Part shown: positions 4,493 through 40,245 of the stretch, in pieces
Layout of the letters: each line of letters opens with the position of its first letter
Numbering within the stretch: the stretch's first letter is position 1
From: a virus
Reading direction: 5' to 3' (one strand)
DNA: 40,269 nucleotides
IMG/VR virus record: IMGVR_UViG_3300030106_005325
Coordinates: 1,575-41,843 of that record
Translations under genes and position numbers: made by a program
Notes under the pieces: model-generated
What the model was told of the DNA's origin: nothing
The model's database searches: none
What the model saw: the letters and a program-made list of their open reading frames with translations, nothing else

Positions 4493-4518
4493 TATTTAAT
4501 ATTTTATAAAATTTTATT

Positions 4519-5700: not shown

Positions 5701-5723
5701 AAATTTATTAAAAATATAGGAAA

Positions 5724-7280
5724 ATGAGTGTATCAAGTACTTTTAGCCCTACACCTTCACCGGTGAAAAAAACTGTCCAATCAGCATTTATAGATTTTGC
5801 TGATGGTAGTTTTAATCAATGGGCACAACAATATTTACCAGACCTTATGGAAAAAGAAGCCGAGGTCTTTGGTAATAGAACAATTTCAGGCTTCTTAGAA
5901 ATGGTAGGAGCTGAGGAGGCTATGGCTGCTGATCAAGTAATTTGGTCAGAACAAGGTAGACTTCACTTAGCATACAAAGGTTCAGTCGATGGTAGTGGAT
6001 TAAAAATCTGGTTAGTTGGAGATTCTAGTGGATCCGCAACTAATGATATATATAGTGGTGGTGTTGGAAAAGATCACGGTGTTAGAGTTGGTGATATGAT
6101 TCTCGTGGCTTCACATAATGCAGTTAGAAGATGTTATGTAAGTGATGTTCATGATACTAATGGACAATTAACTGTTGATCCATATCTTGGAGCCAGCCTT
6201 AATGCTGTTGCTGGTGGTGGTGCAATTGTCGATGCGGATACTTTAGCCGGTGGTTCTGAAGGGTCAGCAAACGTTAGAGTTTTAGTTTATGGTTCTGAAT
6301 TTAGAAAAGGTAGTAATGGTAGAGCTAGTGGAAACGAAGCAAAAGTTAAAACTTACGCAAACAACCCAATTATCATGAAAGATAAGTATTCTGTATCAGG
6401 ATCTGACGCTTCTCAAATTGGCTGGATTGAAGTTACAGGAGAGGAAGGACAGAACGGTTACCTATGGTATTTAAAATCTGAAGGTGACACAAGAGCAAGA
6501 TTTACTGATTACTGTGAAATGGCTTTAATTGAGTCTTGTCCAACTAGTGTTGTTACTTCTCAAGCTAATCCAGTTGCTGGTGCTTTAGTAGGTTCTGAAG
6601 GTTTATTTCATGCTTTAGAAACCAGAGGTAATGTAGCTAGTGGTGTATTAGGTTCTAGTGAAGATACTGACTTAATTGAATTTGACGCTATCTTAGCTGA
6701 GTTTGATAAAAATGGTGCAATTGAAGAGAACATGATGTTCTTGGCAAGAACTCCATCTTTAGCAATCGATGATATGTTAGCTGCTAAATCTGCGTATGGA
6801 GCCGGTGGTACATCTTACGGTGTATTCGATAACTCTGAGGACATGGCGTTAAATTTAGGTTTCAATGGTTTTAGAAGAGGTTCTTATGATTTCTATAAAA
6901 CAGATTGGAAATATTTAAATGACCAAGGAACTAGAGGTTGGATCAATGGAGCTTTAGATCAAACGGTTGCAACAGGTGCATTAACTGGTGATTATGAGGC
7001 GTCGCCTACTAGCGGTGGAGAGTTAATCGGTGGTATCAGAGGTGTTATAGTACCCGCTGGTGTTACTTCGGTTTATGATCAAATGCTAGGTAAGAATCTA
7101 AAACGACCGTTTTTACATACTCGTTTTAGAGCTTCTCAAACTGAAGACAGAAGATTCAAAACTTGGATTACTGGTTCGGTTGGGGCTGTTACATCTGATT
7201 TAGACGCGATGGAAGTACATTATTTAACTGAAAGATGTTTAATAGTACAAGGTGCAAATAACTTTATGTTATTGAACTAG
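5724..7280 (+). CDS. Major capsid protein
   Basis: Main shell subunit, 518 aa. Assigned by its place after portal and scaffold candidates, its length, and the sequence type familiar from marine phage capsid proteins: a helical N-terminal segment (residues 15-60, FADGSFNQWAQQYLPDLMEK), then Gly/Ser/Asp-rich beta segments, a central stretch with NPIIMKDKYSVSG near residue 215, and a C-terminal domain ending GANNFMLLN. An HK97-type fold is expected from the family but cannot be shown here. A hairpin terminator begins 15 bases after the TAG stop, which would set this highly expressed gene at the end of a transcript. The start has a 'aggaaa' purine stretch just upstream, one of the few here resembling a ribosome binding site. 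Confidence 0.85.
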   Translation: MSVSSTFSPTPSPVKKTVQSAFIDFADGSFNQWAQQYLPDLMEKEAEVFGNRTISGFLEMVGAEEAMAADQVIWSEQGRLHLAYKGSVDGSGLKIWLVGDSSGSATNDIYSGGVGKDHGVRVGDMILVASHNAVRRCYVSDVHDTNGQLTVDPYLGASLNAVAGGGAIVDADTLAGGSEGSANVRVLVYGSEFRKGSNGRASGNEAKVKTYANNPIIMKDKYSVSGSDASQIGWIEVTGEEGQNGYLWYLKSEGDTRARFTDYCEMALIESCPTSVVTSQANPVAGALVGSEGLFHALETRGNVASGVLGSSEDTDLIEFDAILAEFDKNGAIEENMMFLARTPSLAIDDMLAAKSAYGAGGTSYGVFDNSEDMALNLGFNGFRRGSYDFYKTDWKYLNDQGTRGWINGALDQTVATGALTGDYEASPTSGGELIGGIRGVIVPAGVTSVYDQMLGKNLKRPFLHTRFRASQTEDRRFKTWITGSVGAVTSDLDAMEVHYLTERCLIVQGANNFMLLN

Positions 7281-7295
7281 TACTTAATTAAGATT

Positions 7296-7318
7296 AGGGG
7301 AGCGCGAGCCGCTCCTCT
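7296..7318 (+). terminator. Hairpin terminator after the capsid gene
   Basis: Nine-pair stem (AGGGGAGCG with CGCTCCTCT, one G-U pair) and a 5-base loop, followed by tatctttattta rather than a clean T run. It lies between the capsid gene and the next start at 7354. The GC-rich stem stands out from the AT-rich surroundings. The downstream tract suggests a partial terminator or a 3' stabiliser. Confidence 0.7.
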
Positions 7319-7353
7319 TATCTTTATTTATTAATTATATTATATTTTATATT

Positions 7354-8202
7354 ATGGCAAAGAAAAATGAAAAAAAAGTTGAGGTACAAGAACCTCAAGT
7401 AGAAGAAACGGTTGTAATGGAAAAACCGAAGGTTGAAACTACTAAAGTAAAAAAAGAAGTTAAACCTGAACCAAAAAAAGATAAATGGGAGATTAAAGAT
7501 AGATTGTACGTGCTAAAGGGTAATCAAACGCCTTTATCAAGAATGATAAGTACAAAGAATATGAGGTGGTTTGATAAAGAGAAAGGGTATGAAAGAGAGG
7601 TTATGCCAACTTTAAACCAATCGACATGTTTTGTTGATGAAATGAAGGGTAAAATAATGCCGATAAAGATCGTGTTTAGATATGGAAGCTTATTTGTTCC
7701 AAGAAACAAGGTTATGCTGCAAAAGTTTTTATCTATATACTGCCCACTTTTAAATAACGTTTACACTGAAGTGAACGAGGAGAAAGCCGCGGATAATGAA
7801 CTAGAATGGTTAGAGTATGAACTAGAGGCTTTAAACGCAGCAAAGAACATGGACGTAGATATGGCTGAAGCTATAATGAGAGTAGAGAACGGCTCTAAGG
7901 TTGCTAGCATGAGTTCTAGGGAATTAAAGAGAGATCTACTAGTGTTTGCTAAGAAAGATCCAGCTTTATTCTTAGATTTAGCTAAAGATGAAAATGTTCA
8001 ATTAAGAAACATTGGATTAAAAGCTATGGAACAAAACATTATAAACATGTCTCCAGATAAAAGATATTTTGAATGGAAAAACACTGGTAGAAAACTAATG
8101 ACAGTTCCATTTGATGAAAACCCATATTCAGCTTTAGCTCAATGGTTTAAAACTGATGAAGGTGTAGATGTTTTATCTTCAATAGAAAAACAACTTAAAT
8201 AA
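7354..8202 (+). CDS. Conserved phage protein of unknown function
   Basis: This 282-aa protein begins with a 45-residue low-complexity tail of Lys, Glu, Val and Pro. A compact domain starts around KWEIKDRLYVLKG. It contains a mixed segment with ENMRW-like aromatic and basic residues (ISTKNMRWFDKEKGYEREV), then VFRYGSLFVPRNKVMLQKFLS, and a helical, acidic C-terminal half. I recognise the pattern as recurrent in marine phages of Bacteroidota but know no assigned function. It sits alone between two hairpin terminators, directly after the capsid gene, so it may be a capsid-associated or assembly factor. No enzyme motif is visible. Confidence 0.6.
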   Translation: MAKKNEKKVEVQEPQVEETVVMEKPKVETTKVKKEVKPEPKKDKWEIKDRLYVLKGNQTPLSRMISTKNMRWFDKEKGYEREVMPTLNQSTCFVDEMKGKIMPIKIVFRYGSLFVPRNKVMLQKFLSIYCPLLNNVYTEVNEEKAADNELEWLEYELEALNAAKNMDVDMAEAIMRVENGSKVASMSSRELKRDLLVFAKKDPALFLDLAKDENVQLRNIGLKAMEQNIINMSPDKRYFEWKNTGRKLMTVPFDENPYSALAQWFKTDEGVDVLSSIEKQLK

Positions 8203-8220
8203 CAAACAATAGTTTTGTAG

Positions 8221-8249
8221 AAATAGCCACTCATTTTGGGTGGCTATTT
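8221..8249 (+). terminator. Rho-independent terminator
   Basis: Perfect 10-pair stem (AAATAGCCAC with GTGGCTATTT) with a 9-base loop, followed by ttattt. It begins 18 bases after the stop of the gene ending at 8202 and closes the capsid-region transcript. Confidence 0.85.
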
Positions 8250-8277
8250 TTATTTGGGGCTAACCTTTCCACTTATT

Positions 8278-8308
8278 ATGTAACTATAATAGTGTAAATT
8301 AAATTAGT
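8278..8308 (+). promoter_or_regulatory. Possible promoter with ATGTAACTATA element
   Basis: The 59 bases between the terminator ending at 8249 and the small gene at 8309 contain ATGTAACTATAATAG, which includes TATAAT (8285-8290). The same 11 bases (ATGTAACTATA) recur in the gap at 19845, and TAACTATA recurs in the gap at 34091. A restart of transcription is expected after a strong terminator. No clear -35 box or Bacteroidota TTTG/TAnnTTTG pair is seen, so this is tentative. Confidence 0.3.
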
Positions 8309-8464
8309 ATGAAATCACGAGGATTAGGAGATACAGTGGAAAAAATAACAAAAGCCACAGGTATTAAAACATTAATGGAAATAGCTATGTCAAGAAGATG
8401 GTCAGATTGTGGATGTGATAAACGTAAAAATTGGCTAAATAGGCAATTTCCTTATAAACAATAA
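8309..8464 (+). CDS. Small CxC protein (51 aa), function unknown
   Basis: A 51-aa ORF fills the space between the terminator and the next gene, ending 2 bases before the start at 8467. The N-terminal half (GLGDTVEKITKATGIKTLME) is an amphipathic helix candidate; the C-terminal half has a Cys-Gly-Cys-Asp-Lys-Arg motif followed by NWLNRQFPY. The combination 'GLGDT-KxTKATGI ... CGC-KR ... LN-FPY' is one I recognise as a recurring small-protein pattern in phages and bacteria of marine environments. The two cysteines could bind metal, perhaps as a dimer. Its position at the head of the connector block suggests a virion or assembly role. Confidence 0.6.
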   Translation: MKSRGLGDTVEKITKATGIKTLMEIAMSRRWSDCGCDKRKNWLNRQFPYKQ

Positions 8465-8466
8465 GT

Positions 8467-9282
8467 ATGGTAAATATAGATAATGTATATCAAAAAGTTT
8501 TAACGCTTATAAATAAGGAGCAAAGAGGACACTTAACTCCTCAAGAATTCAATTTGTTAGCGGATAAAGCGCAGATGGAAATAATAAATGATACTTTCCA
8601 CGCGTTAAAAACTGCGTATCATAAAAGAAAGAACGCAACAGAAGCTTTTGACGAGACAGAAATGTTACAAGAGAAATTAAGTCCACTAAGAAATAGAGTG
8701 CAATACATTACATCAAATGGTATTATAGCTCCTCCGGGTAGTGCGGAAGCTACATTTTATCCACCTGAGTCAGCTTACTACGTGTCATCAATACAATTAT
8801 TAAACTGCAAGGGTGTATCACTAACTGAGTTTGGTGTTGAAGCTGGGATTTTTCCAGAAATAGTTCGAGTTACAAAAGATGAGTTAACAAAGATGATGCA
8901 GCACCCTCTAACAAGACCTAGTATAAAAAGACCTGTTTACGTGGCAATTGAAAATATGGGTGGTCAAACAATAACTTATAGGTGTTACGCTGGGATACAA
9001 GGACAGGATCCTCTTGTTAATACTATTGGTACAACAAACATATCAGGAGTTGAATACGATTACTTTGAGAAACCACCAACACCACGCTGGGCGTATGTCG
9101 TTGTTAATGGAAAAGCTCTTTACAATTCTAATCAATCTGTTCATTTTCAAATCCACAAGATGGAGGAGGAAAACTTAGTAACTAGAATTTTAGAGTTAGC
9201 TGGTGTTACTATTTTAAAACCAGATATAACAGCACACGCGATGAGAGACAAGATGAATACTAAACAAACACAAAATAGTTAA
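8467..9282 (+). CDS. Probable head-tail connector or structural protein
   Basis: This 271-aa protein opens with NIDNVYQKVLTLINKEQRG followed by LTPQEFNLLADKAQMEI, a start I recognise from many marine phage structural genes. The first 80 residues are helical; the rest is mixed with a C-terminal helix (LVTRILELAGVTIL) near residue 240. There is no catalytic motif. It lies between the capsid region and the large tail genes, where adaptor and stopper proteins usually sit, and is followed after 2 bases by the next gene. The connector role is inferred from order only. Confidence 0.6.
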   Translation: MVNIDNVYQKVLTLINKEQRGHLTPQEFNLLADKAQMEIINDTFHALKTAYHKRKNATEAFDETEMLQEKLSPLRNRVQYITSNGIIAPPGSAEATFYPPESAYYVSSIQLLNCKGVSLTEFGVEAGIFPEIVRVTKDELTKMMQHPLTRPSIKRPVYVAIENMGGQTITYRCYAGIQGQDPLVNTIGTTNISGVEYDYFEKPPTPRWAYVVVNGKALYNSNQSVHFQIHKMEEENLVTRILELAGVTILKPDITAHAMRDKMNTKQTQNS

Positions 9283-9284
9283 TT

Positions 9285-10367
9285 ATGGGATTACTAGATG
9301 GTCAAAGTCAATATCAATACTACCCAACATCTTTCGGTGGAGCTGGAGAAGGTGATTTAGGTGGTTATCAATTTGTAACACTTGACAATATTATATCAGC
9401 TTTTCTTATAGCATATGTTGGAGAAAATAAACTGATAACAAAAGTAAGTAGAACGGATGTTCAGTTTCACGCAATGAGAGCTGTACAGGAGTTATCGTAT
9501 GATGTGTTTCGATCGGTTAAATCTCAGGAGCTAGAGGTTCCACCATCTTTAACAATGCCACTTCCTCAAGATTATGTTAATTATACTAAAGTAGTTAGAG
9601 TTGGTAGTGATGGTATTGAAAGAGTTTTATATCCAACAGGTAAAACATCTAATCCATTTGCTATAGAGCAAAATGACGATGGTAGTTATGTGTTTTATAA
9701 TCAAAACCCATACACTGATGGTAGTGATTACACAAATTCATTAAACGTACCAACCGACATAATGGAACAAGGAGATGACACTGACCCAGCAAACGCTTAT
9801 GTTTATAACTCTGGAACGGGGTCAATGGTTGACATTGATGGTGATGGTGATGGAGATATGTGGATTGGAGATGCGGTTAATACAACTGTTAATGTTAATG
9901 ACGATAACTATAGTGATACATGGACAAATTATCAATCAGAATCGTCAACATACACGTCTAGTACCAACGATGATGACGCTGATAGCTTTGAACTAGATAA
10001 TATAGGTAGAAGATATGGATTAGATCCACAGTATGCGCAAGCTAATGGTACATTTTTTATAGACTATCAAAGAGGATATATACATTTTGGATCTTCATTG
10101 GTTGGGGAAACTATAACATTGAAATATGTTAGTGATGGTTTAGGTACAGATGCTGAGATGGTTGTACATAAGTTTTGTGAGGAAGCTTGCTATAAGTGGA
10201 TAGCGTGTGCTATATTATCAACTAGAAGTAATATACCTGAATATATAGTTCAACGATTTAAAAAAGAAAAGTTCGCTGAAACTAGAAAAGCAAAGATTAG
10301 ATTATCTAATATAAAAATAGAAGAATTTACTCAGATTCTAAAAGGAATAAGTAAGCAAATAAAATAA
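9285..10367 (+). CDS. Probable tail adaptor or tail tubular-like structural protein
   Basis: The 360-aa protein has a helical segment early (LDNIISAFLIAYVGENKLI, residues 30-50, then a helix around HAMRAVQELSYDVF) followed by VPPSLTMPLPQDYVNYTKV. This layout resembles gatekeeper or tail tubular A-type proteins of podoviruses, although I cannot prove homology. Residues about 180-195 form an Asp/Gly repeat (DIDGDGDGDMW) of calcium-loop type, in a region (150-235) rich in Asp, Asn, Ser and Thr that looks like a surface insertion. The C-terminal 90 residues are helical and basic. It is followed after 4 bases by the giant tail gene, consistent with a connector partner. Confidence 0.55.
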   Translation: MGLLDGQSQYQYYPTSFGGAGEGDLGGYQFVTLDNIISAFLIAYVGENKLITKVSRTDVQFHAMRAVQELSYDVFRSVKSQELEVPPSLTMPLPQDYVNYTKVVRVGSDGIERVLYPTGKTSNPFAIEQNDDGSYVFYNQNPYTDGSDYTNSLNVPTDIMEQGDDTDPANAYVYNSGTGSMVDIDGDGDGDMWIGDAVNTTVNVNDDNYSDTWTNYQSESSTYTSSTNDDDADSFELDNIGRRYGLDPQYAQANGTFFIDYQRGYIHFGSSLVGETITLKYVSDGLGTDAEMVVHKFCEEACYKWIACAILSTRSNIPEYIVQRFKKEKFAETRKAKIRLSNIKIEEFTQILKGISKQIK

Positions 10368-10371
10368 TAAC

Positions 10372-13300
10372 ATGCCAGAAATTAAACACACTTTTACCAC
10401 CGGCAAAATGAACAAGGACGTCGATGAAAGACTTGTTCCCAACGGTGAATACAGAGACGCTTTAAATGTAGAGGTTAGAACAACAGTTGGTACAGATGGT
10501 GTTGTTAGTGGTACTGGAGGCGAAGGTAATGCTGGTTCTATCCAAAATATTAGAGGAACATTATTGGTTCCAGATAAACCCCATACAACAACGAATTACA
10601 TGGGTGTTAGCTCTAGGTTTATTGGAAGTGTTGCTGATGAAAAAAACAATTCAGCATACTTTTTAGTACAAGCTCCTCAACCTAGTTTTTCAGATATAAG
10701 TCAAGTGATCAACGGTTCTCCTATGAAATTCATAGATAGCATATGGAGATACAGAACTGGATTTGGTATGGGTTCTCCTTATGCGGAACCTATTGTTGTT
10801 GATTATTTTGCTCTATTGATAAGCAGGTTGGACGCTTGTGGTGATCAACAGTATACTAGTGTTAGTTCAGAAGGATACTCTTCTCTTAATGTCTTAGATG
10901 GATCCATGTACAGGGTCGGTATGGTTGTCGAAGCGTTTAATATAGATGGAGTAAATGTTTTTACAGAAGAAGTTACAATAAAGAATATAGTCACGCCAAG
11001 TACTGGTAGTGATTATATAGAGTTATCTGGAGGACAAACAGCAAACCCAAAATCAATTCAAGCTTTTAGATTTACACATCCTGGAGCTTTAAATTTTCAT
11101 AAATCCACTTTTCTTATAACAGGTATAAACGTAATAGGTAATTTTTTATTTTGGACAGATAACACAACTGAGCCTAAAAAGATAAATATAAAAAGATCAA
11201 AACGAGGAACACCTATTAGTGGCGTGAGTCACACTCAACTATACTTAAAAGATCCACTGTCTCCATCAGGTACAGACAACGACTTGGTTGATTTACAAGA
11301 ATTAGAATTCCCAAACACTCCCCAAGATTTAAAAGAAGAACACATAACTGTTATACGTAGAGCACCTATGGCGGCGCCTAGTATAGAAATGAAATCATCA
11401 GATAGAGATGGTTCAGTTTCTGTATCTGGGATTGATTATGCTTTTGCTACCATTGAAAACCCTGACCCAGAAATTGGTTCTGTGTTTAATTTGGAAGATG
11501 TTGTTTTTGCTACCACAGATTGGATGGCTAATGATGTGCTCACGTTTTATGGTACTGACGAAGATAGTTTTGTATTCAGAACATTAACATTTAAATTCCT
11601 GTCATATATAGAGGATTTTGATGGTTTAGGTGAAGAAACAGATTCAGCAACAACGATAATTAAAGTTGAGCTCATGAGCTCTTCGGCTTCTTTGCCACTA
11701 GGTTCTATACAGTGGGAAATAAAATTACAAGAATCAACACCATTGTTTGAATTAAAACTTGGTAGATTTGCTTATAGATATAGATATGATGATGGAGAGT
11801 ATTCTACTTTCTCACCTTGGTCTAAATTAGGATTCTTACCTGGAGAGTATAATTTTAAGTCAACTAAAGGGTATAATTTAGGTATGATGAATACGGCTAG
11901 ACAATTTATTGTTAGTGATTTCATACCGTTTCGAGGTGAAAGACCTGACGATGTTGCTAGCGTTGAGATACTATACAAGACTACAGATAGTCCCAATGTT
12001 TACACTATTAAAACAGTTCATAGGGAAAAAGATGACTTATGGGAAACAACATCTTTAACAGAATCAAATCTAGACATAACTGCAACTGGTAAGCTTAAGA
12101 TAACATCAGAGATGATACATAGAGCTTTACCTAAAAATCAGATACTTAGAGTTTGGGATAACGTTCCAATAAAAGCTTTAGCACAAGAGATTGTCGCTAG
12201 TAGATTGGTTTACGCTAATTATCAACAAGGTTATAACATGCCTTTATCTTTAACTGGTTTAGAGCAAAGGACTAGAACTATAGGGCGCGCTACTAAAGCG
12301 GTTCCAAAACCTTCAATAAAATCAATGAGAAGTTATAAGTGGGGTATGGTTTTTGGAGATAAATATGGTAGAGAAACGCCAGTTATAGAATCAGCTCACG
12401 TAAGTTTAGGTCCTGTTGCGGGTGACAGTGGTTTATCACAGGAATACAGTAATTTTACCGGTGATATATATATTGAAAAATACTTGTCATCAACTCAAAA
12501 TGCTTTTCAATTAAGACAGGTTTGGGGGTCCGTTATTAACGGTGAAAGTGGAGAACCAGACGATTGGATGAGTTACGTTAAGTATTATGTCAAAGAAACG
12601 TCCAATGAATATTACAACTTAGTAATGTACAACTGGTATCTTGCTGAACCAAAACTAGTAAATAACACCGTTGCTGAATCAGCCGCTTGTGTTTGGTTGT
12701 CGTTTAACTCTGCTGATAGAAATAAAGTGGATGAAGAAACTCATTTGATATTAAAAACAGAGCACGGGCAAGAAGATGAAGATTTAGCACCTGTTGTTGA
12801 GAAAGCTAGATTTAAAATACTAGCAATAGAAAACGAAGCTCCTGACTACATTAAAACAGAGGAAAGAAAAATAGGTGAAATAACACTCCAAGCAAGTGAT
12901 CAAGATTTAGCTGGATGGAACAGTACTATATCATCAGGTAACCTTGCTTCTTCAGATGCTTCTTTTAATCCGGATGAATTAACTAACTATTTAACATTTA
13001 AGCTACCAACCGGTTCTGTACCCCCTGGTTTTCTAAATGACCACACTGGTATAGGTAACGTAAGAGTTAGAGTTAGGGGTGAATCAAATTCCGACACTAA
13101 ACTATATAGTAGGTGGATAACGTTAACTAATTGGCATATTAGTAGCGATAATAATAATTTTGAAGTAACAGTGCTAGAGATGTTCGGACAGGACGCTAAC
13201 ATGACAAGTCGATTTACTGATACCTTTGGATCAACAACTGGTCTATCATATTTCTTAGAATTTAGAGAAGATGTTATTGAAAACAAACCTGAGTTTGATG

Positions 13301-25200: not shown

Positions 25201-28200
25201 TTTCATGGTTTAGCAAGAGCGTTTACTAAAAACTCAAATAGCAAACTATATAAAAATCTAGTTCACAAGGTTGTTGTACCTAGTGTTGTAACACCTATAG
25301 AGTGGGCTGCTGCAGAATACGGCGGTGAAGTAATGTTCGCTGATGGAACGGGTATGTTTGATGGTCACACTCTTCATTTTAATAGAGAGACTGGTGAGAT
25401 TGAAACGAACTTTATTTTCCCATGGGCGATGGGTGCTAGTGGTGGATTGTTTGGAATGGGCCTTAAAGGTTTTCAAAACAAAGTATTAAAACCACTTATA
25501 AATAAAGAGGGAGGAGCTGGTGGACAAATATTACTTTGGTTAGATAAACAAAAACACAAAGGTACATTAAGGAATTATATACTTGGTGATACAGGAGCTA
25601 AATTCGGTAAGTGGGTAGGCCAAGGAGTTACAGCTAGTGGTTTATTAACCGTTGCTAGCGCTGCTGAGCAAATAAAAAAGGATTTGGAAAATGGATGGTG
25701 GCCTTGGAGTAATGTAGATCCAGACTCAGAAGAAGGTAAACGTAGAAAAGAAGAGTGGAAATCTTTTACCACTCTAGATCATTTTGTAGCTACAACTGCA
25801 GCTATGATGACCGTGGGATACAGAGGTCTAGGTGGTATAAAAAAAGATATACAAAGAGATTTCTTAAGATTAAAAAATGAAACCCCAGCAACAGTTGCCG
25901 CAGACAAAGGTTTAGGCATGAGCGTGAAGAATGAAAAAAATGAAAATGGTACTTGGGAAAACAAAGATATATTATACGAGGCAGAGCAAATAAATAAACT
26001 GTTAGAAGGGGAGGTATTCTCAATAGAGGCTGAATTAAAAGAATTGAGAGATCAAGAGATGAACCCTAAAACAAAAGGTGTTTACGACGCTGTTAATGGT
26101 AAGGGTGCTTTAAAAAAGAAGGTTGAAAGTTTAACAAAAAAACTAGAAGAGATTAACAAAAGTAAAGCGGAGGTTAATAAGTGGTCTAACGATTTAATTA
26201 GAAGAAATGAAATTATTGAACTAAAAGAATCAATCAAGAATGAAGGTGAGTATTTAGATTATCTTAAAAGCGAATGGAATATAGCTAGGGGTCTCGCTGA
26301 GGGTGATTTAAAAGCTGACGACTTAGATAGAATAGCAGATTTAAATGCTAAAGAATTTGAGATGTTTTTAGAAAATGAAAACATAAAGGGTGATAGAGCT
26401 GATTATTTAAGATCTGTTTATAACGTTGTTTTTCAAGCTGGATTAATGGCTACTAAGTTGAAAATGGGTAAAAGAGGTAGTGAAACTAGAGACATGTGGA
26501 TGGAATCTCAATATGAATTAGCTCATAATTACAATAGGTTAAAAATACTAAAAGAAGCACAAGGAGATGGAGGCACGCATGGTGTTCAAATAAGAGACCT
26601 AGAAAGTAGAAACAAAGAGTTAAATGATAAGTTAGACAAGCAGTTTAAAGAACATAATATAGAATTTAAAAAAGAACTCTTGCGTCAACTAGAGCTAGAT
26701 AAAGTACTAGCTAAAGAACTCGGCGCTGATCTACATGTTGTAGATGAAAAGAAGTACATGGAGGCTCTAAAAAGAGAGGGTGAAGATATTGCTGCATCTA
26801 AATTTAGTGAAGCTTTTATTAATAAGAAAGGTAATGAAATATTCATAAATCTAAACCAAGCTCTAAAAGTTAAAAATCTTGGGGTTGGTAGACACGAGAT
26901 AATGCATAAATTATTATGGGACTCACTAAAAGAAAGCTACACATACAAAGACCCTTTGACTGGTAAAAAAGAAATTAGAAAAAGAATTTCAAAACAAGGA
27001 ATAGACGTTATCGACATGTTCTTAAATAGTTTATACTCTAAGGATAGGAAGTTAATAAAAGAAAGAGTAGAGAATAATTACAAGTATGAAAAAGATGTTA
27101 GATTTGTTAAGAAAGATGGTAAGAAAGTTTTAGAAGAATTTGATATCTTAATAGATGGTAAGAAAGTAGAAAGAGATCCTAGAGAATATTATGAAGAGTA
27201 CTTAACGGCTACAGTAGACGCAATTAAAAATGGACAACTTATAAAAGATTACTCAACTGGTAGACAGATTGGAAAAATAATTTGGCCTATATTAAAACAA
27301 AAAGGTCCGTATAAGAATATGTATAAATTCCAGGTTAATGGAGTTAACTCCAAAAAAGCTGTTAATGATCTATGGGCGATGATAGAAACCTTAACTAGAG
27401 AATCCGAGGTTAATGTCGGAATGGTTGTTGACGGTAAAAAAGTCAAAGGAGAAGGTGGCGCAAAGTCCAAAAGTAATGTTGAGGGTTTAGTTAGCAAGCA
27501 TGGTGGTAGTGCACCTAAAATGCTTAGAAAAGAATTGAATCGATATCCTGATTCTTTTGCTAAGAGAGAAGACGGTAGCTTTATACTGGATAGTGAAGGT
27601 AGAAAAATACCAGTAGAAGGAGCAGAGATTGATTGGTCTAGACATGAGTACCCAATTAATGAAAGTTCATTTGGAAAAGAAATAGGACCTATAGTTGGAA
27701 GTATATTAAAAAGACTATATGACCCTATAACTAGATACCCTAGCGGTAAAGAAGCGTTAAACGAACTAGGTATAACGAGAGAACAGTTTAAAAACGAATT
27801 AATACTTAGAGCTTCCTCACTTATAGATAGAGGAGGAGAATTTAGAAGAGAGGATTTAGGTAAGAATCAAACAATAGACGATTTTATTAGCAACAGACTT
27901 AATTTAAGAGCTAATGCTCTAGCTAAGGAGTTGGGTTTACCATCCGCTGAAGTGTTGGTTAAAAAAGAAAAATTAGAACAAAGGTCTGGTGAAGATGTTT
28001 ACGAAAGACAAGTTGGGGTAAAGGATAAGAGAATGAGTGATTTTGAAAACCAACAAATATTACTTAAGGAATCGACAAAAAAGGAAATATCTCAATTTAG
28101 AAAAGATTTTGGAATTGAAGATGGAACGGTTGAATATGAAACCCTAAAAAAGAAAGCCTTTGATGCTACATTAAATTCATTTAAAAAATCAAAAGTAAAA

Positions 28201-31200
28201 GTTTTTGATAGTGAAGGAAATATAAACCCCAAGTTTGTTTTAGATTTAAAACAAAATATCCGTAAAGAAGTAATGACCACCGTTAAAAAAATGTTTTTAG
28301 ATGGTGGTAAGAAGGGTGTTATCAATTTTACTGAAAAATACGGTAAAATGTTTTGGGAAAACTACGTAATGAGAACTCTTGATGGCAAGAACTGGATAGT
28401 TAAAGCTGGAACACCTAGTAAAGCTGTATTAAAAAAATATCCAGACGCTAAGGCTTTTGGTAGAGAGGTTGTTATTGAAAGAGCTAAGGTTGGTATTACT
28501 AAAAAAGCTCAAGGAATGGAGCAACTTAGAATGACAGCTGGAGAGACATCAGGCGCTGCTATATACAGAGTTAAAACATGGGAGGAAATAAATGGCAACA
28601 TGGGACTTCAAGCTCTTTTAAACGGGGAGTATTATAATCCAAAAACAAAAGAAACAATACAAGCTGAAGATATAATTGGTTGGAGTGGTAAAGCTGCAAC
28701 TGGAAATTACTTTGCTGGTAAAAGAGAGTCATTATCTAACTTTTTAGTTGACAACATAACTAAGAGTGTTGTTGATCAAGTTAGAAGAGAAAATAAAATA
28801 GAAGAAGTTAACGGAGAAAAAGTTATCGAAGGTCTATTAGATAAGATAGTAAACTCGGTTGGTGGTGAGATCGGTGTTAACTTCTCTAAGTCAACAGAGT
28901 TTAACGTAGATCACGCTAGAGAATTACTAAAGGATATATGGGAACATGGGTTGGGAGATGTTATTAGAGTTAGTGAAAAGGGTGACCTACAATTGTTAAG
29001 AAACTATGGAGAAAAGAATATAAGCAAGGAGACTATTAGTAAGGTAAATTCTATATGGGATTTTGCTCCAGTAACATCTAATGGTATTAAATTTATATCT
29101 GGTATAAAAAACCACAAAAATCCATTAATGCAAGAGATTGCAGACGCTTTTAAAAAAGACAGATTCACTAGAGACGATCTGCAAACTATAGGTAGAATAG
29201 AAAGACAATTACCAGAAATAGTTAAAGCTCTAGGAAAAGACATTCTACAAATGAAACCATTGTGGGATATGTTGGGTTATCATAGACGTATTATGAATTC
29301 AGCGTTTAAACAAGAATGGAGTTGGTGGAGGGATTTGTCTAAAAAAGAACAAGATAAATTAGTGAAAGAGCATGGTGAAGACGTTAAGTATCAGAAAACA
29401 AAAAATGGGAAACTAGTAAGTGCTCCATTTTACTCTTCTAAAAAAAGATTAATGGAACTAGCAGATAGTTTCAAGTCTGAACCTAAAATTAAAAAACTAG
29501 TTGATAAAGTTAAATTGATGAACAAGGGTTCTGGTGGTCCCTTTAAGGCTGTTGAAGACATATTAAATAAAGATATCACACAAGCGGAAAAAATACTTGA
29601 GCTTAAAAAAATTGAATCAGAGATTAGAAAAGCTAGTGAAGCCAACATAAACCTACATGTTGAGATAATAAACAGGTTAACCAAGGGAGTTAAAGAAAAG
29701 AAATTCGACGAAGCCACTGTAGCCCATATACTGCAAGCTCAAACTAGTTTAGTAAAAGGATTTAGAGCGTTGAGTAGATTGGAATTGGTAGACGTTAGAA
29801 CAGGATCTCAAGCAACTTATAGATACACAACTAAAACTAGATCTGGTAAGGTTGTAGAGAAGTTTACCAATAAACTAACTGACGCTAAAAAAGGAATTGA
29901 ATACAGTGTTAATAAAAGAAACCCTTGGTTTAAAGAAGCTGTTAAATGGTACGGTAGTGAAAAGATTGTGATGGAAAAAATAGCCAAAGGTAAACTTGGT
30001 ATAAAGGGTGAGCACGTAGGTCCTAGTGCTATAACTAATATAAAGTTAGTTGAATTCATAGCTGAAGCTACTAGAGGTGAAAAATATAAAACAGATAAAG
30101 ATAGAAAAGCTAGAATAAAAGAAATACTAACAGAGCATTCTCAGTTAATAACTGCTGACTTCATCACCGACATAATAGATAAAGGAGGTAAAACAAATCC
30201 AGCTGGGTTTGATAGAATAAAGTTCCTAGATCAATTTCACGCTGAGGGTAAACACATAGATAATATTTTCTCTTTAAAAGGTGAGGGTTACTATCAGTTT
30301 CTAACAAGTAAAAAAATATCTAAATGGGAGAAGGAAAACGTAAAGAAGTCGTTTGAACAAAAAGAAAAATTAACTAGAGATCGAAACATACATGAAAGTG
30401 GTCTTAAGTTCTCTAAGTCTGGTAAGAAAAAGGGTATGTCTACTTTTGATTTTGACGAAACACTCATTGTTAAAGGTAAGAATTTTGTCACAGCTAAAAA
30501 CCCATTAACCGGTGAAATTAAAAAAATAAAATCTGAAGCTTGGCCAACTGAAAGTTCTAAATTAATAAAAGAAGGATATGAGTTTGATTTTGGAGATTTT
30601 GTAAATGTTAAAGGTGGAGTTGATGGACCACTTCTGCAGAAGATGAAAAATCAAATTAAAAAATATGGAGTTGAAAATGTATTTGTTTTAACAGCTAGGC
30701 CAGCTCAATCTGCAATAGCTATACATGGATGGTTAAAGTCTAAGGGTATAAATATACCTATAGAAAATATAACCGGACTAGGTAATGGTACTAGTAGAGC
30801 TAAAGCTGAGTGGATGTTAGATAAATTTGCTGAAGGTTATAACGATATGTATTTCGTTGATGACGCCCTTGGTAATGTTAAAGCTGTTAAGGAGGTATTA
30901 GAGCAACTAGATGTTAAATCAAAAGTTGTTCAAGCTAAAAACAAGGTACGAGTAGGTAAATACATAGTTGATATAACTACAAAAGAAGGTAGAGATTTTG
31001 TTAAAAATTATGAAACAAACCCTGGTAAGAAAGTTGTTTTCCTCGCGGGTGGTGCTGGTAGTGGTAAAAGTAATGTTGTTAAGAAATTAAACTTAAGAGA
31101 TCAAGGGTTTGAGATAGTGAATCAAGATATATCGTTAGAGTGGTTAAAAAAGCAAGAGGGTGTACCAGAAGATATGAGGGAGTTAACGAAAGAGCAAAGA

Positions 31201-34077
31201 AGTACACTTGGTAAAATTGGACACCAAGCTAGAGGTATTATGCAGAGAAAGAGGCTTAAGTTCCAAGGACAAGGCAAGGGTATAGTTGTTGATGGTACAG
31301 GTGGTTCAATGAAAGCTATGGAAAAACTTATAGCAGAGTTTAAAGAAAAGGGATACGAAACAAGCATGTTGTTTGTTGAGACGTCCAAGGAAACGGCTTT
31401 AGCTAGAAATAAGGCTAGAAAAGAAAGATCTTTATTAGATATTATAGTTATAAAAAATCATGAAGCGGTTCAAGGAAATAAACCTGGATTTAAGAAGATG
31501 TTTAAAGACAACTTCATGGAAGTTAAGACAGATAAATTAACACAAAAAGATTTAATGCCACCTGAACTTATTGCTAAGATGAACAAGTTTGTTGGTAGAG
31601 GTAAAGAGTTAAAGTTAGGAAAAGAATTGCCAGATTGGATAGTTGACACAACCACTCCAAAGGGTAAAAAACTAATTGAAAGTGTAGAAGGACTACCTGT
31701 TGTAAAAGGCAAGGGGTTAAGTAAGGTTCAGTTTTCTAAAAGTATAGATGCTGAGTTTAATGAAATGATTGAGCGTAGATTTAAGGTTGGTGCTAAAGAC
31801 GTTATAAGCGGTGATGTTGCTAGAATAAAAGGTAGGAACATAGGTAAGTTTAACTTCTTTATACCACCATCAGCCGAGGACTTCGCTGGACTAATGTATT
31901 CGCTTTTAGGTAAAGGAAAACAAGGGAATGCTGACATGGCTTGGTTTAAAAAGAATCTATTCGATCCATTTGCTATTGGTATTAGAGATCTAACTGTTAC
32001 TAAGCAAAAAATGTCTGAAGAGTATAGATCTTTAATTAAACAAATAAATAAAGAGCTTGGTACTAAAAATACTTTTGGTAAGAAAAGATTCGACTTTAAT
32101 AAAAAAGTTGAAGGGACTGTGCATACTGTTGATACTGCGATTAGAACATATCTGTGGGAGAAGAATGGATTTGAGGTACCTGAAATGACTGAGGCTACTA
32201 AAAACAAGTTGCTAGATTATATAAATAGCAATCCTAAGTTAATTAATTTCGCTGAAGTTCTAAACAATATAACTAGAGCTAAGGAGGGATATGAAGCTCC
32301 AGGAGAGTATTGGATGATGGAAAATATATCTCACGATTTAAATAGATTGGTTCAAGAAAAAACGAGAGCTGATTTCTTAGCCAAGTGGATAGAGAATAAA
32401 AATATAATTTTTTCCGAGAAAAATTTAAACAAGATAGAAAGCGTACTTGGTTCTGGTTATAGAGAGGCGTTAACTAATATGTTGTACAGAATGGAGACTG
32501 GTACCAATAGGTTGATTGGCACTAAAGATGGACCAACTAAAAGATTTTACGATTGGATAAATGGTTCTGTTGGAGCAACGATGTTCTTAAACACTAGATC
32601 AGCTACGCTACAGACCATATCTATGGTTAACTTTATAAACCATAAAGACAATAGTATATTTGCGGCTGCTAAAGCTTTTGCTAACCAACCACAGTTTTGG
32701 AAAGACTTTTCTTTTATAATGAATTCACCCATGCTAAAACAGAGAAGAGCTGGATTAGAGATAGATGTATCAGCTTCTGAACTAACAAACCTTTTTGAAA
32801 GAAGCGGAAGAAACCCTCAGTCAGTTTTAAAATATCTTTTACAACAAGGTTTTTTACCTACTAGATTAGCAGATAGTTTTGCTATCGCGATGGGTGGCGC
32901 ACCATTCTATAGAAATAGATTAAACATGTATTTAAAGCAAGGTATGAGTGCGGCTAAAGCTAAAGAAAAAGCTTGGTTAGATTTTCAAGAGATAGCTGAA
33001 GCAACGCAGCAGTCTTCTAGACCTGATTTAATTTCTCAACAGCAAGCTGGACCACTTGGTAGACTTATACTTGCTTGGGCTAACACGCCAATGCAGATGA
33101 CTAGATTAATGAAGAAAGCTATGTCCGACCTAGTCAATGGTAGAGGTTATTGGATGAATAATGTTTCTAAGATGGTTTACTATGGAGCTGTTCAAAACCT
33201 ATGGTTTATGACATTACAAACTGGATTAGGTTGGTTGTTGTTTGGCAGTGATCAAGAGGAGATGATTGAAGACAAAACAGAAAGAGTTTTCAATGGAGCT
33301 TTTGATACTGTACTTAGAGGTACTGGAATATATGGAGCCAGTGCTGCAACAATTAAAAATGTTGTACTTCAATATCAACGTGAAAGAGAAAAAGATTTTG
33401 GAAAAAGAGATATGGGTAATGCTGTTATAGAGATGATAAATCTATCTCCACCTTTAGGAGCTAAATCTAGAAAGGTTTATAGTGCTATGAAAACATGGAC
33501 ATACAACGAGGGTGTTGGAGAAGAGTTGGGTTTTAGAATAGAGAATCCAAACCTACGAGCAACAGCTAACGTTATAGAAGCATTAACAAATGTTCCTGCA
33601 GCCAGAGCGTTAAATAAAGCTAATAACTTAGAAGAGGTTGTGACAGGTGGACACGCTTTATGGCAAGACGCCGCTATGATCGGTGGTTGGAGTCCGTGGA
33701 ATATAGGTGTGAAAGACGCTGAGTTAGAAGAAGCTAGAGATCGGGCTGATGTAAAAAATAAAGAGGAGAGAGCAGCTCAAAAAGAACGTGATAAAGAAAT
33801 TGAGAAGAAAATAGAGGAAATGAAAATGACTAACCAGGGTTACAAGAGCAAAAGGTGTTCTGGTAGAAAATCTAATGGTCAACGTTGCAGTATAACTGGA
33901 TGGACAAAGGGTAAGTCGTTTAGATGTGGTTATCACACATCATATAAACCTAATCAAAGTAGTGATAGAGATAACGATGGTGTTAAGGAATACCAGTGTA
34001 AGGCTCGAACTTCTTCTGGTAAGAGGTGTAAGAACAGAACAGAACATAAAAGCAAAAAATGTTATGCTCACAGATAA
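22267..34077 (+). CDS. Giant multidomain polyvalent ejection protein (metallopeptidase, HAD, P-loop kinase, zinc-like repeats)
   Basis: 3936 aa, probably injected with the DNA. N-terminus: two short repeats of the 'KVYKVKPDDVEKFLED' type (residues 10-26 and 50-65). Residues 950-1190 hold several Gly/Ala hydrophobic segments that could cross a membrane; 1230-1330 is coiled coil. Residues 1543-1547 are HEIMH, with a downstream EEYLTA (1643-1648) that may supply the third ligand of a zinc peptidase. A HAD phosphatase carries DFDET (2728-2732), LTAR (2808-2811), Lys2846 and DD (2865-2866). A zeta-toxin-like kinase follows with GGAGSGKS (2928-2935), NQD (Asp2954) and VVDGTG (3007-3012). Residues 3432-3456 belong to a C-terminal region common in marine phage giant proteins. 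The last 75 residues carry two C-x9-C-x10/12-C-x2-H repeats. Ejection role is inferred from position. Confidence 0.8.
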   Translation: MITRYKGNDGKVYKVKPDDVEKFLEDNDKAILMPTVGDNYVYQKEDGDTIQVPPEHLNHFLNNPKNKNSKLIRGGEEDITVPPPQYGIGEMGGVMYPQTRSQFKKLLEDPKSQYWKKIIDGELDVNISDDPEMQKWFESSLKAHKGATKLKDHTDTVLQTFALSGHMGPIQAITAVGAKELLTKTETGKLVQQKIKNAWEWINPTIESKTKGKQLSEEKYNEIYNENGLVNEDFMGAMIDVINNEDDAGLEYDTDRDDKVPFPLTSASLKAPTKKGYGGFLVGQEKRLQRFLNDYFKDQGVVFKEARTGHDALTVHGDGWDSKPFNIHVPYKEGSDRILRGETSRRIGEGTEWDAEVGVSGSSLQIDVAQLNDMMQEIKMRQDPESMVNNSLFVLDRMKNSKYLNSIENEWHEAEFYQHLDVMFHRDKFGGMAPSRLIIDDNSRSDFNDGVVGVNKEGWVELPDGSRLSYKYIWDNRERLYDLKLAESDINFQNEKEDLHMSDEDRAELMNLETLRSKGEIDPQEYANKKYKLQTRGVDTHLERTDAYYQGKEPAALKKINNEIKLLESGYINEYDDKQRKWNLVEADQSEVEEKLKFLKGERDALVEIIGVQDLIEKNEDGSYGKWIGVNTLKWIMNPTNPEEMIQVDQNNIPTGEKRKATGDEIFIEEAAERMAETMPRDYVLEQRRNAYYRLLSTGQASWDHKDQIEKEIHWIHRNFANFFDHKNKSWDNDKQQLKHAFGDGGTRDIFDLKLAVNPLTGVLSGPPGVGQFTNDLIRAAGDVKAKMEDPEYRVGPMFTTPEGFTEQPGGSNYAEDFNKALTEYKMWSRAVDLNMNPRESNMENLLFGVNFNLKNLKDAKMFGGDKTLFPTKGSWNSVITTGHGSTLVDGLGKAFFGGQGGLEEVTQADMAEIFEHKLLETGIYDLPDVRNEGWNGRGSRARQISNAATNTVTSLAPLLAELYVFKRVGGLKALNKTFHGLARAFTKNSNSKLYKNLVHKVVVPSVVTPIEWAAAEYGGEVMFADGTGMFDGHTLHFNRETGEIETNFIFPWAMGASGGLFGMGLKGFQNKVLKPLINKEGGAGGQILLWLDKQKHKGTLRNYILGDTGAKFGKWVGQGVTASGLLTVASAAEQIKKDLENGWWPWSNVDPDSEEGKRRKEEWKSFTTLDHFVATTAAMMTVGYRGLGGIKKDIQRDFLRLKNETPATVAADKGLGMSVKNEKNENGTWENKDILYEAEQINKLLEGEVFSIEAELKELRDQEMNPKTKGVYDAVNGKGALKKKVESLTKKLEEINKSKAEVNKWSNDLIRRNEIIELKESIKNEGEYLDYLKSEWNIARGLAEGDLKADDLDRIADLNAKEFEMFLENENIKGDRADYLRSVYNVVFQAGLMATKLKMGKRGSETRDMWMESQYELAHNYNRLKILKEAQGDGGTHGVQIRDLESRNKELNDKLDKQFKEHNIEFKKELLRQLELDKVLAKELGADLHVVDEKKYMEALKREGEDIAASKFSEAFINKKGNEIFINLNQALKVKNLGVGRHEIMHKLLWDSLKESYTYKDPLTGKKEIRKRISKQGIDVIDMFLNSLYSKDRKLIKERVENNYKYEKDVRFVKKDGKKVLEEFDILIDGKKVERDPREYYEEYLTATVDAIKNGQLIKDYSTGRQIGKIIWPILKQKGPYKNMYKFQVNGVNSKKAVNDLWAMIETLTRESEVNVGMVVDGKKVKGEGGAKSKSNVEGLVSKHGGSAPKMLRKELNRYPDSFAKREDGSFILDSEGRKIPVEGAEIDWSRHEYPINESSFGKEIGPIVGSILKRLYDPITRYPSGKEALNELGITREQFKNELILRASSLIDRGGEFRREDLGKNQTIDDFISNRLNLRANALAKELGLPSAEVLVKKEKLEQRSGEDVYERQVGVKDKRMSDFENQQILLKESTKKEISQFRKDFGIEDGTVEYETLKKKAFDATLNSFKKSKVKVFDSEGNINPKFVLDLKQNIRKEVMTTVKKMFLDGGKKGVINFTEKYGKMFWENYVMRTLDGKNWIVKAGTPSKAVLKKYPDAKAFGREVVIERAKVGITKKAQGMEQLRMTAGETSGAAIYRVKTWEEINGNMGLQALLNGEYYNPKTKETIQAEDIIGWSGKAATGNYFAGKRESLSNFLVDNITKSVVDQVRRENKIEEVNGEKVIEGLLDKIVNSVGGEIGVNFSKSTEFNVDHARELLKDIWEHGLGDVIRVSEKGDLQLLRNYGEKNISKETISKVNSIWDFAPVTSNGIKFISGIKNHKNPLMQEIADAFKKDRFTRDDLQTIGRIERQLPEIVKALGKDILQMKPLWDMLGYHRRIMNSAFKQEWSWWRDLSKKEQDKLVKEHGEDVKYQKTKNGKLVSAPFYSSKKRLMELADSFKSEPKIKKLVDKVKLMNKGSGGPFKAVEDILNKDITQAEKILELKKIESEIRKASEANINLHVEIINRLTKGVKEKKFDEATVAHILQAQTSLVKGFRALSRLELVDVRTGSQATYRYTTKTRSGKVVEKFTNKLTDAKKGIEYSVNKRNPWFKEAVKWYGSEKIVMEKIAKGKLGIKGEHVGPSAITNIKLVEFIAEATRGEKYKTDKDRKARIKEILTEHSQLITADFITDIIDKGGKTNPAGFDRIKFLDQFHAEGKHIDNIFSLKGEGYYQFLTSKKISKWEKENVKKSFEQKEKLTRDRNIHESGLKFSKSGKKKGMSTFDFDETLIVKGKNFVTAKNPLTGEIKKIKSEAWPTESSKLIKEGYEFDFGDFVNVKGGVDGPLLQKMKNQIKKYGVENVFVLTARPAQSAIAIHGWLKSKGINIPIENITGLGNGTSRAKAEWMLDKFAEGYNDMYFVDDALGNVKAVKEVLEQLDVKSKVVQAKNKVRVGKYIVDITTKEGRDFVKNYETNPGKKVVFLAGGAGSGKSNVVKKLNLRDQGFEIVNQDISLEWLKKQEGVPEDMRELTKEQRSTLGKIGHQARGIMQRKRLKFQGQGKGIVVDGTGGSMKAMEKLIAEFKEKGYETSMLFVETSKETALARNKARKERSLLDIIVIKNHEAVQGNKPGFKKMFKDNFMEVKTDKLTQKDLMPPELIAKMNKFVGRGKELKLGKELPDWIVDTTTPKGKKLIESVEGLPVVKGKGLSKVQFSKSIDAEFNEMIERRFKVGAKDVISGDVARIKGRNIGKFNFFIPPSAEDFAGLMYSLLGKGKQGNADMAWFKKNLFDPFAIGIRDLTVTKQKMSEEYRSLIKQINKELGTKNTFGKKRFDFNKKVEGTVHTVDTAIRTYLWEKNGFEVPEMTEATKNKLLDYINSNPKLINFAEVLNNITRAKEGYEAPGEYWMMENISHDLNRLVQEKTRADFLAKWIENKNIIFSEKNLNKIESVLGSGYREALTNMLYRMETGTNRLIGTKDGPTKRFYDWINGSVGATMFLNTRSATLQTISMVNFINHKDNSIFAAAKAFANQPQFWKDFSFIMNSPMLKQRRAGLEIDVSASELTNLFERSGRNPQSVLKYLLQQGFLPTRLADSFAIAMGGAPFYRNRLNMYLKQGMSAAKAKEKAWLDFQEIAEATQQSSRPDLISQQQAGPLGRLILAWANTPMQMTRLMKKAMSDLVNGRGYWMNNVSKMVYYGAVQNLWFMTLQTGLGWLLFGSDQEEMIEDKTERVFNGAFDTVLRGTGIYGASAATIKNVVLQYQREREKDFGKRDMGNAVIEMINLSPPLGAKSRKVYSAMKTWTYNEGVGEELGFRIENPNLRATANVIEALTNVPAARALNKANNLEEVVTGGHALWQDAAMIGGWSPWNIGVKDAELEEARDRADVKNKEERAAQKERDKEIEKKIEEMKMTNQGYKSKRCSGRKSNGQRCSITGWTKGKSFRCGYHTSYKPNQSSDRDNDGVKEYQCKARTSSGKRCKNRTEHKSKKCYAHR

Positions 34078-40065: not shown

Positions 40066-40245
40066 TTAGCTATTTTTAATAGCTTGAATTTGCACTCTTA
40101 CGTTCTGAGCAGCCTCTTTAATTGTTTGCATACTCTTTCTAGCTCTAGTTCCAGCGGATTTATTTCCACTCATAAACTTTTCTATTTCTTCATGTGCACT
40201 GTGCATTTCATCTTGCATAGTGTCTAATAATTCTGGTAAATTCAT
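40066..40245 (-). CDS. Hc1 histone H1-like small DNA-binding protein
   Basis: The 59-aa minus-strand ORF reads from an ATG at 40245 to a TAA at 40066. The C-terminal half (FMSGNKSAGTRARKSMQTIK and onward to QIQAIKNS) matches the Hc1-type histone H1 family of Bacteroidota, in which GNKxAGTRxRK...IKxxAQxxRxxIQxxK is the hallmark. The N-terminal half is a short acidic helix (ELLDTMQDEMHSAHEEIEKF). Host versions bind DNA and affect nucleoid packing. A phage copy could condense phage or host DNA, or compete with the host protein. It is the only minus-strand gene seen and faces the late block, so it probably belongs to a separate, possibly early, transcription unit outside the window. Confidence 0.8.
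   Translation of the reverse strand: MNLPELLDTMQDEMHSAHEEIEKFMSGNKSAGTRARKSMQTIKEAAQNVRVQIQAIKNS

Follow-up and report, generated by a model that had tools for sequence, protein, structure and literature searches.

The window, by which we mean the whole 40,269-nucleotide stretch of DNA that was analyzed, covers positions 1575-41843 of a virus record that is 41,843 bases long and carries on its plus strand a gene for a giant protein of the polyvalent type (Table 1). Two enzyme domains of this protein, a HAD phosphatase and a P-loop kinase directly behind it, were recognized by both profile and fold. An HExxH motif, which marks a candidate metallopeptidase such as polyvalent proteins are reported to contain, was recognized by eye in a region that Pfam did not call.

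Table 1. Features of the giant protein gene in the window (all on the plus strand).
Feature	Residues	Nucleotides	Strand	Remarks
Giant polyvalent-type protein	3936 aa	22267..34077	+	closes the virion gene block
HEIMH (HExxH), candidate metallopeptidase domain		26893..26907	+	recognized by eye in the sequence
FSKS motif	2715-2718	30409..30420	+	ahead of the HAD; possible linker or processing site
HAD phosphatase domain	2716-2892	30412..30942	+	motifs I D2728/D2730, II T2809/R2811, III K2846, IV D2865/D2866
Tip of HAD cap hairpin, NPLTGE	2745-2750	30499..30516	+	slot for kinase or ART-like domain in relatives; empty in the window
VDxTTxxG linker repeat, copy 1	2896-2913	30952..31005	+	ahead of the kinase
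P-loop kinase domain	2919-3110	31021..31596	+	AAA_33/Zeta_toxin
VDxTTxxG linker repeat, copy 2	3121-3142	31627..31692	+	after the kinase
FSKS motif	3156-3159	31732..31743	+	closes the HAD-kinase cassette

The window terminase (56-92% identity) and portal (52-82%) are present in 25/25 related contigs tested, every domain architecture described below included, and the isolated relatives of the phage are Flavobacterium Elemovirus and Cellulophaga podoviruses. The giant gene is syntenic with gp101 of Cellulophaga phage phi40:1 and gp123 of phi18:3, each of which is large, ends the structural block, and is annotated as structural from MS/MS data, and with Elemovirus gp21, a structural protein of 3694 residues in the same last-gene position. 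However, BLAST and profile searches revealed no similarity between the giant protein and the syntenic proteins of phi40:1, phi18:3, Elemovirus, and Manatee Spring phage. Because the position matches that of MS-confirmed proteins in the absence of sequence similarity, virion packaging can only be inferred; by this analogy with the Cellulophaga phage proteins, the giant protein is probably carried in the virus particle, and its delivery at injection, again judged from synteny, is plausible.

Several other observations concern the same protein and its surroundings. Residues ~3150-3860, C-terminal to the HAD, are the most widely shared part (~75 of the best 80 relatives) and gave no Pfam match. 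The C terminus itself (residues ~3860-3936, nucleotides 33844-34077) holds repeated Cys/His units of the form RCxxRxSxGxRC...CxxH that resemble small zinc-binding repeats. In the nearest deposited genome, MW202828.1, the giant protein (741-12320, minus strand) bears the name 'reticulocyte binding/rhoptry protein', which we suspect to be an artefact of naming. Elsewhere in the window, a Lys/Ala-rich ORF of 59 residues (40066-40245, minus strand) has the look of a bacterial histone H1-like protein, as judged by eye only.

An earlier note on this DNA, made from the letters alone, had assigned HAD motifs DFDET, LTAR, Lys2846, and DD and kinase motifs GGAGSGKS, Asp2954, and VVDGTG to the giant protein, and all of these are located where it placed them. 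The HAD motifs begin at residues 2728 (DFDET, nucleotide 30448) and 2808 (LTAR, nucleotide 30688), followed by K2846 and by FVDD at residues 2863-2866 (nucleotide 30853), so that the domain shows the four motifs of the HAD superfamily (DxD, T/S, K, and an acidic DD). Both Asp residues of motif I are present in 194/194 distinct HADs, and T2809, R2811, K2846, D2865, and D2866 are invariant in 190/190 distinct HAD cores. When the HAD was searched alone, the sole Pfam match was DUF2608 (2.9e-5, just above the cut-off), which we take to be a HAD-fold family; the general Pfam HAD models do not match this domain, which is too divergent. A sequence search of the PDB with the HAD brought up ResA, but these were chance matches only. 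An AlphaFold2 model of the window pair (20-row alignment, mean pLDDT 72) shows strands alternating with helices in a HAD-like manner and then a P-loop kinase. Its HAD strands (7-13, 25-29/36-40, 90-94, and 143-149) form, with moderate confidence, a Rossmann-like core with an insertion-prone hairpin. Thus, the model gives both folds that the earlier note had proposed, and the kinase is additionally supported by Pfam.

In the kinase, GGAGSGKS begins at residue 2928 (nucleotide 31048), D2954 lies at nucleotide 31126, and VVDGTG begins at residue 3007 (nucleotide 31285). Both AAA_33 (4.1e-11) and Zeta_toxin (5.7e-10) exceed their Pfam cut-offs, the latter with 39.4 bits against a curated cut-off of 22.3, and profile matches also include adenylate kinases and UMP-CMP kinases. 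Residues K2934, D2954, D3009, R3047, R3051, and R3054 are invariant in 45/45 kinases from giant proteins. Catalytic residues are therefore not lost across homologues, the outcome that the earlier note had regarded as fatal to its assignment, but are invariant in ~190 HADs and 45 kinases. We consider both domain calls to be firm. Comparison of the window with its relative L001 by the Nei-Gojobori method, under which dS is near saturation, yielded a dN/dS of ~0.07 in the HAD and ~0.10 in the kinase, so both domains are under purifying selection as read from these codon comparisons. The HAD is a conserved and apparently active phosphatase.

Members of the same kinase family also occur outside giant proteins. 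The kinases of Pelagibacter phage HTVC008M and Methylophilales phage Melnitz share 26-28% identity and the same invariant residues with the window kinase; unlike it, they are products of single-domain genes without a HAD and do not belong to the clade of giant-protein kinases. The family also occurs fused to CTP_transf_like nucleotidyltransferases (L134, L148, L156, L164, and L174) or to NTP_transf_2 (L122) in further proteins of marine phages, and nucleotidyltransferase fusions overall occur in more than one domain order.

The window kinase is flanked by the two copies of a VDxTTxxG linker repeat, and similar units also follow the HAD in relatives L003 and L061. Most relatives with a DFDET motif have a constant linker of ~46 residues behind the HAD. 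The FSKS motifs at either end of the cassette likewise have counterparts elsewhere: a motif of the form [FY]S[KRM] lies within 35 residues upstream of the HAD in 51/182 relatives, when ~5% would be expected (~6-fold enrichment), and within 12 residues downstream in 56/175, when ~1.5% would be expected (~20-fold). Such motifs could be processing sites or recombination-prone linkers. A further FSKS-type motif is present at residue 2206 (nucleotide 28882) of the window protein.

To collect relatives, IMG/VR was scanned with the HAD-kinase pair and later, in two further scans, with distant HADs, and the best 80 matches were kept per scan; the ART-like set described below was retrieved by an ART-bearing query. 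A single kinase query returned 4 loci, and an alignment of kinases was used as the query instead. Note that the resulting architecture counts represent kinds of arrangement rather than population frequencies, because they derive from the best 80 matches per scan and from three choices of query. Among the best 80 loci of the pair scan, 49 carry only the HAD, 2 have the HAD and then the kinase, and 29 have the kinase seemingly ahead of the HAD.

The last of these arrangements proved to be something else once motif I was located. In these loci the sequence order is DFDDTLxxTKSGVRxxxPNxxGxPKPxRKV, the kinase, YEKxRLDAEEFAxQG, and then the remaining HAD. Since motif I lies upstream of the kinase and the rest of the HAD downstream, the kinase resides inside the HAD, between motifs I and II. 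End-to-end alignment of 26 such proteins places the kinase between these two motifs throughout, and in an AlphaFold2 model of a nested protein (mean pLDDT 75) it sits between strands 15-20 and 221-226, which are the two arms of a hairpin. The window HAD has the same hairpin, but there the six residues NPLTGE close it. Classification of HAD phosphatases follows the cap that sits in the hairpin after motif I, and we take the kinase-bearing hairpin to be the C1 cap site of the HAD fold. The nested arrangement is as firm as the two domain calls.

Among the 194 distinct HADs in the matches listed from three scans, the hairpin is short in 122 and holds a nested kinase in 47; the kinase is C-terminal in 3, and the remaining 22 carry some other insert. 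The pairing, which the earlier note had been unable to place, is thus not a one-off: the kinase is nested inside the HAD in 47 relatives. A kinase behind the HAD was found only in the window, L001, and the truncated L002 among the HADs listed. In every giant protein found with this kinase clade, including those from the kinase-alignment scan, the kinase adjoins the HAD.

The 22 other inserts at the hairpin tip comprise 11 ART-like domains, 1 possible second ART type, and 10 small inserts. The 11 ART-like inserts (L200 and L274-L283, around 3546-3950) lie in the HAD cap hairpin, and the ART-PolyVal profile matches 9/11 of them, with a best score of 24.1 bits (E 6.8e-5) against a cut-off of 31.2; we call them ART-like only, as they fall below the Pfam cut-off. 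The insert of L349 at the hairpin slot is seemingly of a different ART type, as judged by eye. At the same tip, an insert of 46 residues was noted in 9-10 relatives (L239, L240, L242, L244, L245, L254, L270, L321, L336, and L351) and one of ~70 residues in L301.

The two domains of the window pair do not group alike in phylogenetic trees. A tree of 139 kinases places the 45 giant-protein kinases on one side of a branch (support 100) and the 94 stand-alone or otherwise fused kinases on the other. In a tree of 55 kinases, those of the window and L001 group with 29 nested kinases (support 99/94), leaving 14 other nested kinases outside this group. None of 200 bootstraps (0/200) kept the nested kinases as a clade without the window and L001 kinases; with an AU test value of p 0.067, such a nested-only clade is disfavored yet not rejected. 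The window HAD instead falls with 49 HAD-only proteins (support 96, SH-aLRT only, in a tree of 108 columns), and motif I reads DFDET in its clade versus DFDDT almost throughout the nested HADs. With the HAD in a kinase-less clade and the kinase among nested kinases, the two domains therefore seem from these trees to have different histories, and the HAD-kinase pairing seems to have formed twice. A relocation of the kinase from the nested position to behind the HAD is likely.

What such a pair might do is first suggested by polynucleotide kinase-phosphatases. A Pnkp-type enzyme would heal nucleic-acid ends, with the HAD removing 3'-phosphates and the kinase phosphorylating 5'-OH groups, and would mend tRNA cut by the host or nicks in the DNA of the phage shortly after it enters. 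Among jumbo phages, Pnk proteins that fuse a kinase to a HAD are known (PMC7824862). By using Foldseek, we found that the alignment of the window model extends across both domains for mammalian PNKP (3zvl, 2.1e-6, 455 columns), the only two-domain phosphatase-kinase covering both parts among the top matches listed. CthPnkp (4gp7) is the best single-domain fit to the kinase (TMt 0.74), and the nested model aligns with Pnkp1 (4xrp, 2.9e-7) and T4 Pnk (2ia5, 2.5e-6). The kinase has a P-loop kinase fold with a catalytic Asp and lid Arg residues; it shares this fold, the Asp base, and the RN-x-x-R lid with T4 Pnk (PseT), Pnkp1, and CthPnkp, and its profile alignment with T4 Pnk (3.2e-8) matches the lid residues. 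The earlier note had described the domain order as reversed, which holds relative to T4 Pnk, where the kinase precedes the HAD, but not relative to mammalian PNKP (3zvl and 3u7g), where the phosphatase precedes the kinase as in the window and which is the best two-domain match; two-domain PNK matches from Foldseek come in both orders. That the same kinase was apparently tied to the same HAD a second time also suggests a joint task.

Several features argue against reading the pair as a Pnk. Polynucleotide kinases are marked by an Asp-x-x-Arg motif whose Arg, R38 in T4 Pnk, has a known role. The equivalent position is Leu or Ile in 45/45 giant-protein kinases (L2957 in the window) and Phe, Leu, or Tyr in 90/94 further relatives, and Asp-x-x-Arg is missing in all 139. 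The window HAD yields no profile match to the T4 Pnk phosphatase, and the window pair is only ~15% identical to mammalian PNKP. Because the domain packing is unlike that of PNK structures (rmsd 17-24 A) and HAD-plus-kinase proteins are few in the PDB, so that a two-domain match is partly forced, the fold match serves as a lead only. Moreover, an ART-like domain is able to replace the kinase in the HAD slot. Some relatives do encode an RNA_ligase-family protein: an ORF of ~283 residues matching this profile, for which assignment as an RNA or a DNA ligase is unsettled, is present in 10/23 related contigs (L025, L026, L038, L045, L050, and others). However, it does not track the kinase: among contigs longer than 64 kb, it is present in 1/3 nested versus 6/8 HAD-only ones. 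The window record, itself a fragment, yielded none. RtcB was looked for and was absent, and a T4 Rnl1 profile matched nothing, the controls included. On this evidence we regard end healing as unlikely.

A zeta-type toxin would phosphorylate UDP-N-acetylglucosamine and so make the cell wall weaker, and the HAD would then be either an enzyme working independently or a brake. The window kinase exceeds the Zeta_toxin cut-off, matches zeta toxin 1gvn by profile (1.1e-5) and by fold (2.6e-5), and has the P-loop and the D-G-T-G strand of zeta toxin and PezT (1gvn and 2p5t); polyvalent proteins are reported to contain zeta-like kinases, which are also reported as MuF fusions (PMC5512222). The ambiguity between zeta toxin and PNK voiced in the earlier note accordingly persists, as the kinase has a Pfam Zeta_toxin match together with PNK fold matches. 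Nevertheless, where the zeta sequence has an Arg after the conserved GTG, giant-protein kinases have Gly (31/45) or Ala (14/45), the fold match to zeta is weaker than that to PNK (TMt 0.48 versus 0.74), and many general kinases match equally well. The window kinase also differs from zeta/PezT in its fusion to a phosphatase. This makes a zeta toxin very improbable in our view.

We likewise give little weight to a module of nucleotide or NAD metabolism, in which the kinase would phosphorylate a derivative of a nucleoside or nucleotide and the HAD would work as a nucleotidase, so that a signal of host immunity is changed or removed or a cofactor is regained. ART domains use NAD as part of their family definition, and the ART-like domains in the same HAD slot would do so too. 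The nucleotidyltransferase fusions of the kinase family and its profile matches to adenylate and UMP-CMP kinases point in the same direction, as do the NadR-type kinase-adenylyltransferase fusions described in phages (PMC9503650). However, Pfam reveals no nucleotidyltransferase in the window protein, the nucleotidyltransferase-fused kinases fall outside the giant-protein kinase clade, and no substrate-specific residue was identified in the kinase. Finally, the HAD and the kinase might be unrelated cargo domains brought together by chance in a shuffled mosaic. Polyvalent proteins are strongly mosaic (PMC5512222), the repeated linkers flanking the kinase could drive shuffling, and the HAD slot takes unrelated domains. 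The kinase nevertheless touches the HAD in all giant proteins found with its clade and was apparently attached to it in two different ways, and chance neighborhood is improbable on these grounds.

The reading that we prefer, and hold with about even confidence, makes the HAD and the kinase a single cassette in a polyvalent protein of marine Bacteroidota podoviruses that is probably packaged in the virion; the HAD is a docking platform with exchangeable enzymes, and the kinase has been re-attached behind the HAD in the window lineage. The HAD phosphatase would serve as the platform, and in relatives its cap hairpin would hold an exchangeable enzyme, most often this kinase and in some cases an ART-like domain. 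The slot is empty in the window lineage, where a kinase of nested descent would have been re-attached right behind the HAD between two linker-repeat copies. Delivered with the DNA, the kinase would add phosphate and the HAD would remove it, the likeliest targets being host nucleotides, nucleic-acid ends, or nucleotide-linked metabolites, and the purpose, early in infection, may be to blunt host defence or to redirect the host. What we infer for the cassette is its packaging in the virion, its injection, a substrate common to both enzymes, and this biological purpose. Because Asp-x-x-Arg is missing in 139 kinases and an ART-like domain shares the slot, we describe an interchangeable effector cassette rather than a demonstrated Pnkp or zeta toxin. 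More tentatively, and with some doubt, the HAD could be a dedicated docking and control module in which the hairpin is the swap site and the phosphatase governs or complements the docked enzyme, the cap itself being another enzyme.

The window protein resembles the polyvalent proteins of Iyer et al. 2017 (PMC5512222) in being a giant multidomain protein in the late/virion block of a phage, with a zeta-like kinase, ART-like domains (in relatives of the window), and an HExxH motif. That zeta-like kinases and ARTs occur in polyvalent proteins was therefore already known (PMC5512222), but a HAD docking module is not described in the main text of that paper, which is without the words 'haloacid', 'phosphatase', 'inserted', and 'insertion'. 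Our literature searches, which mostly reached papers outside subscription, found no HAD with a kinase as a cap insert.

We know of no report in which an entire P-loop kinase, or an ART-like domain, forms a HAD cap insert that is exchanged among close phage relatives. The natural series of an empty slot, a kinase, an ART-like domain, and a kinase outside the slot allows testing of whether opposed activities share one substrate. The HAD hairpin slot is also worth searching for further unknown effectors.
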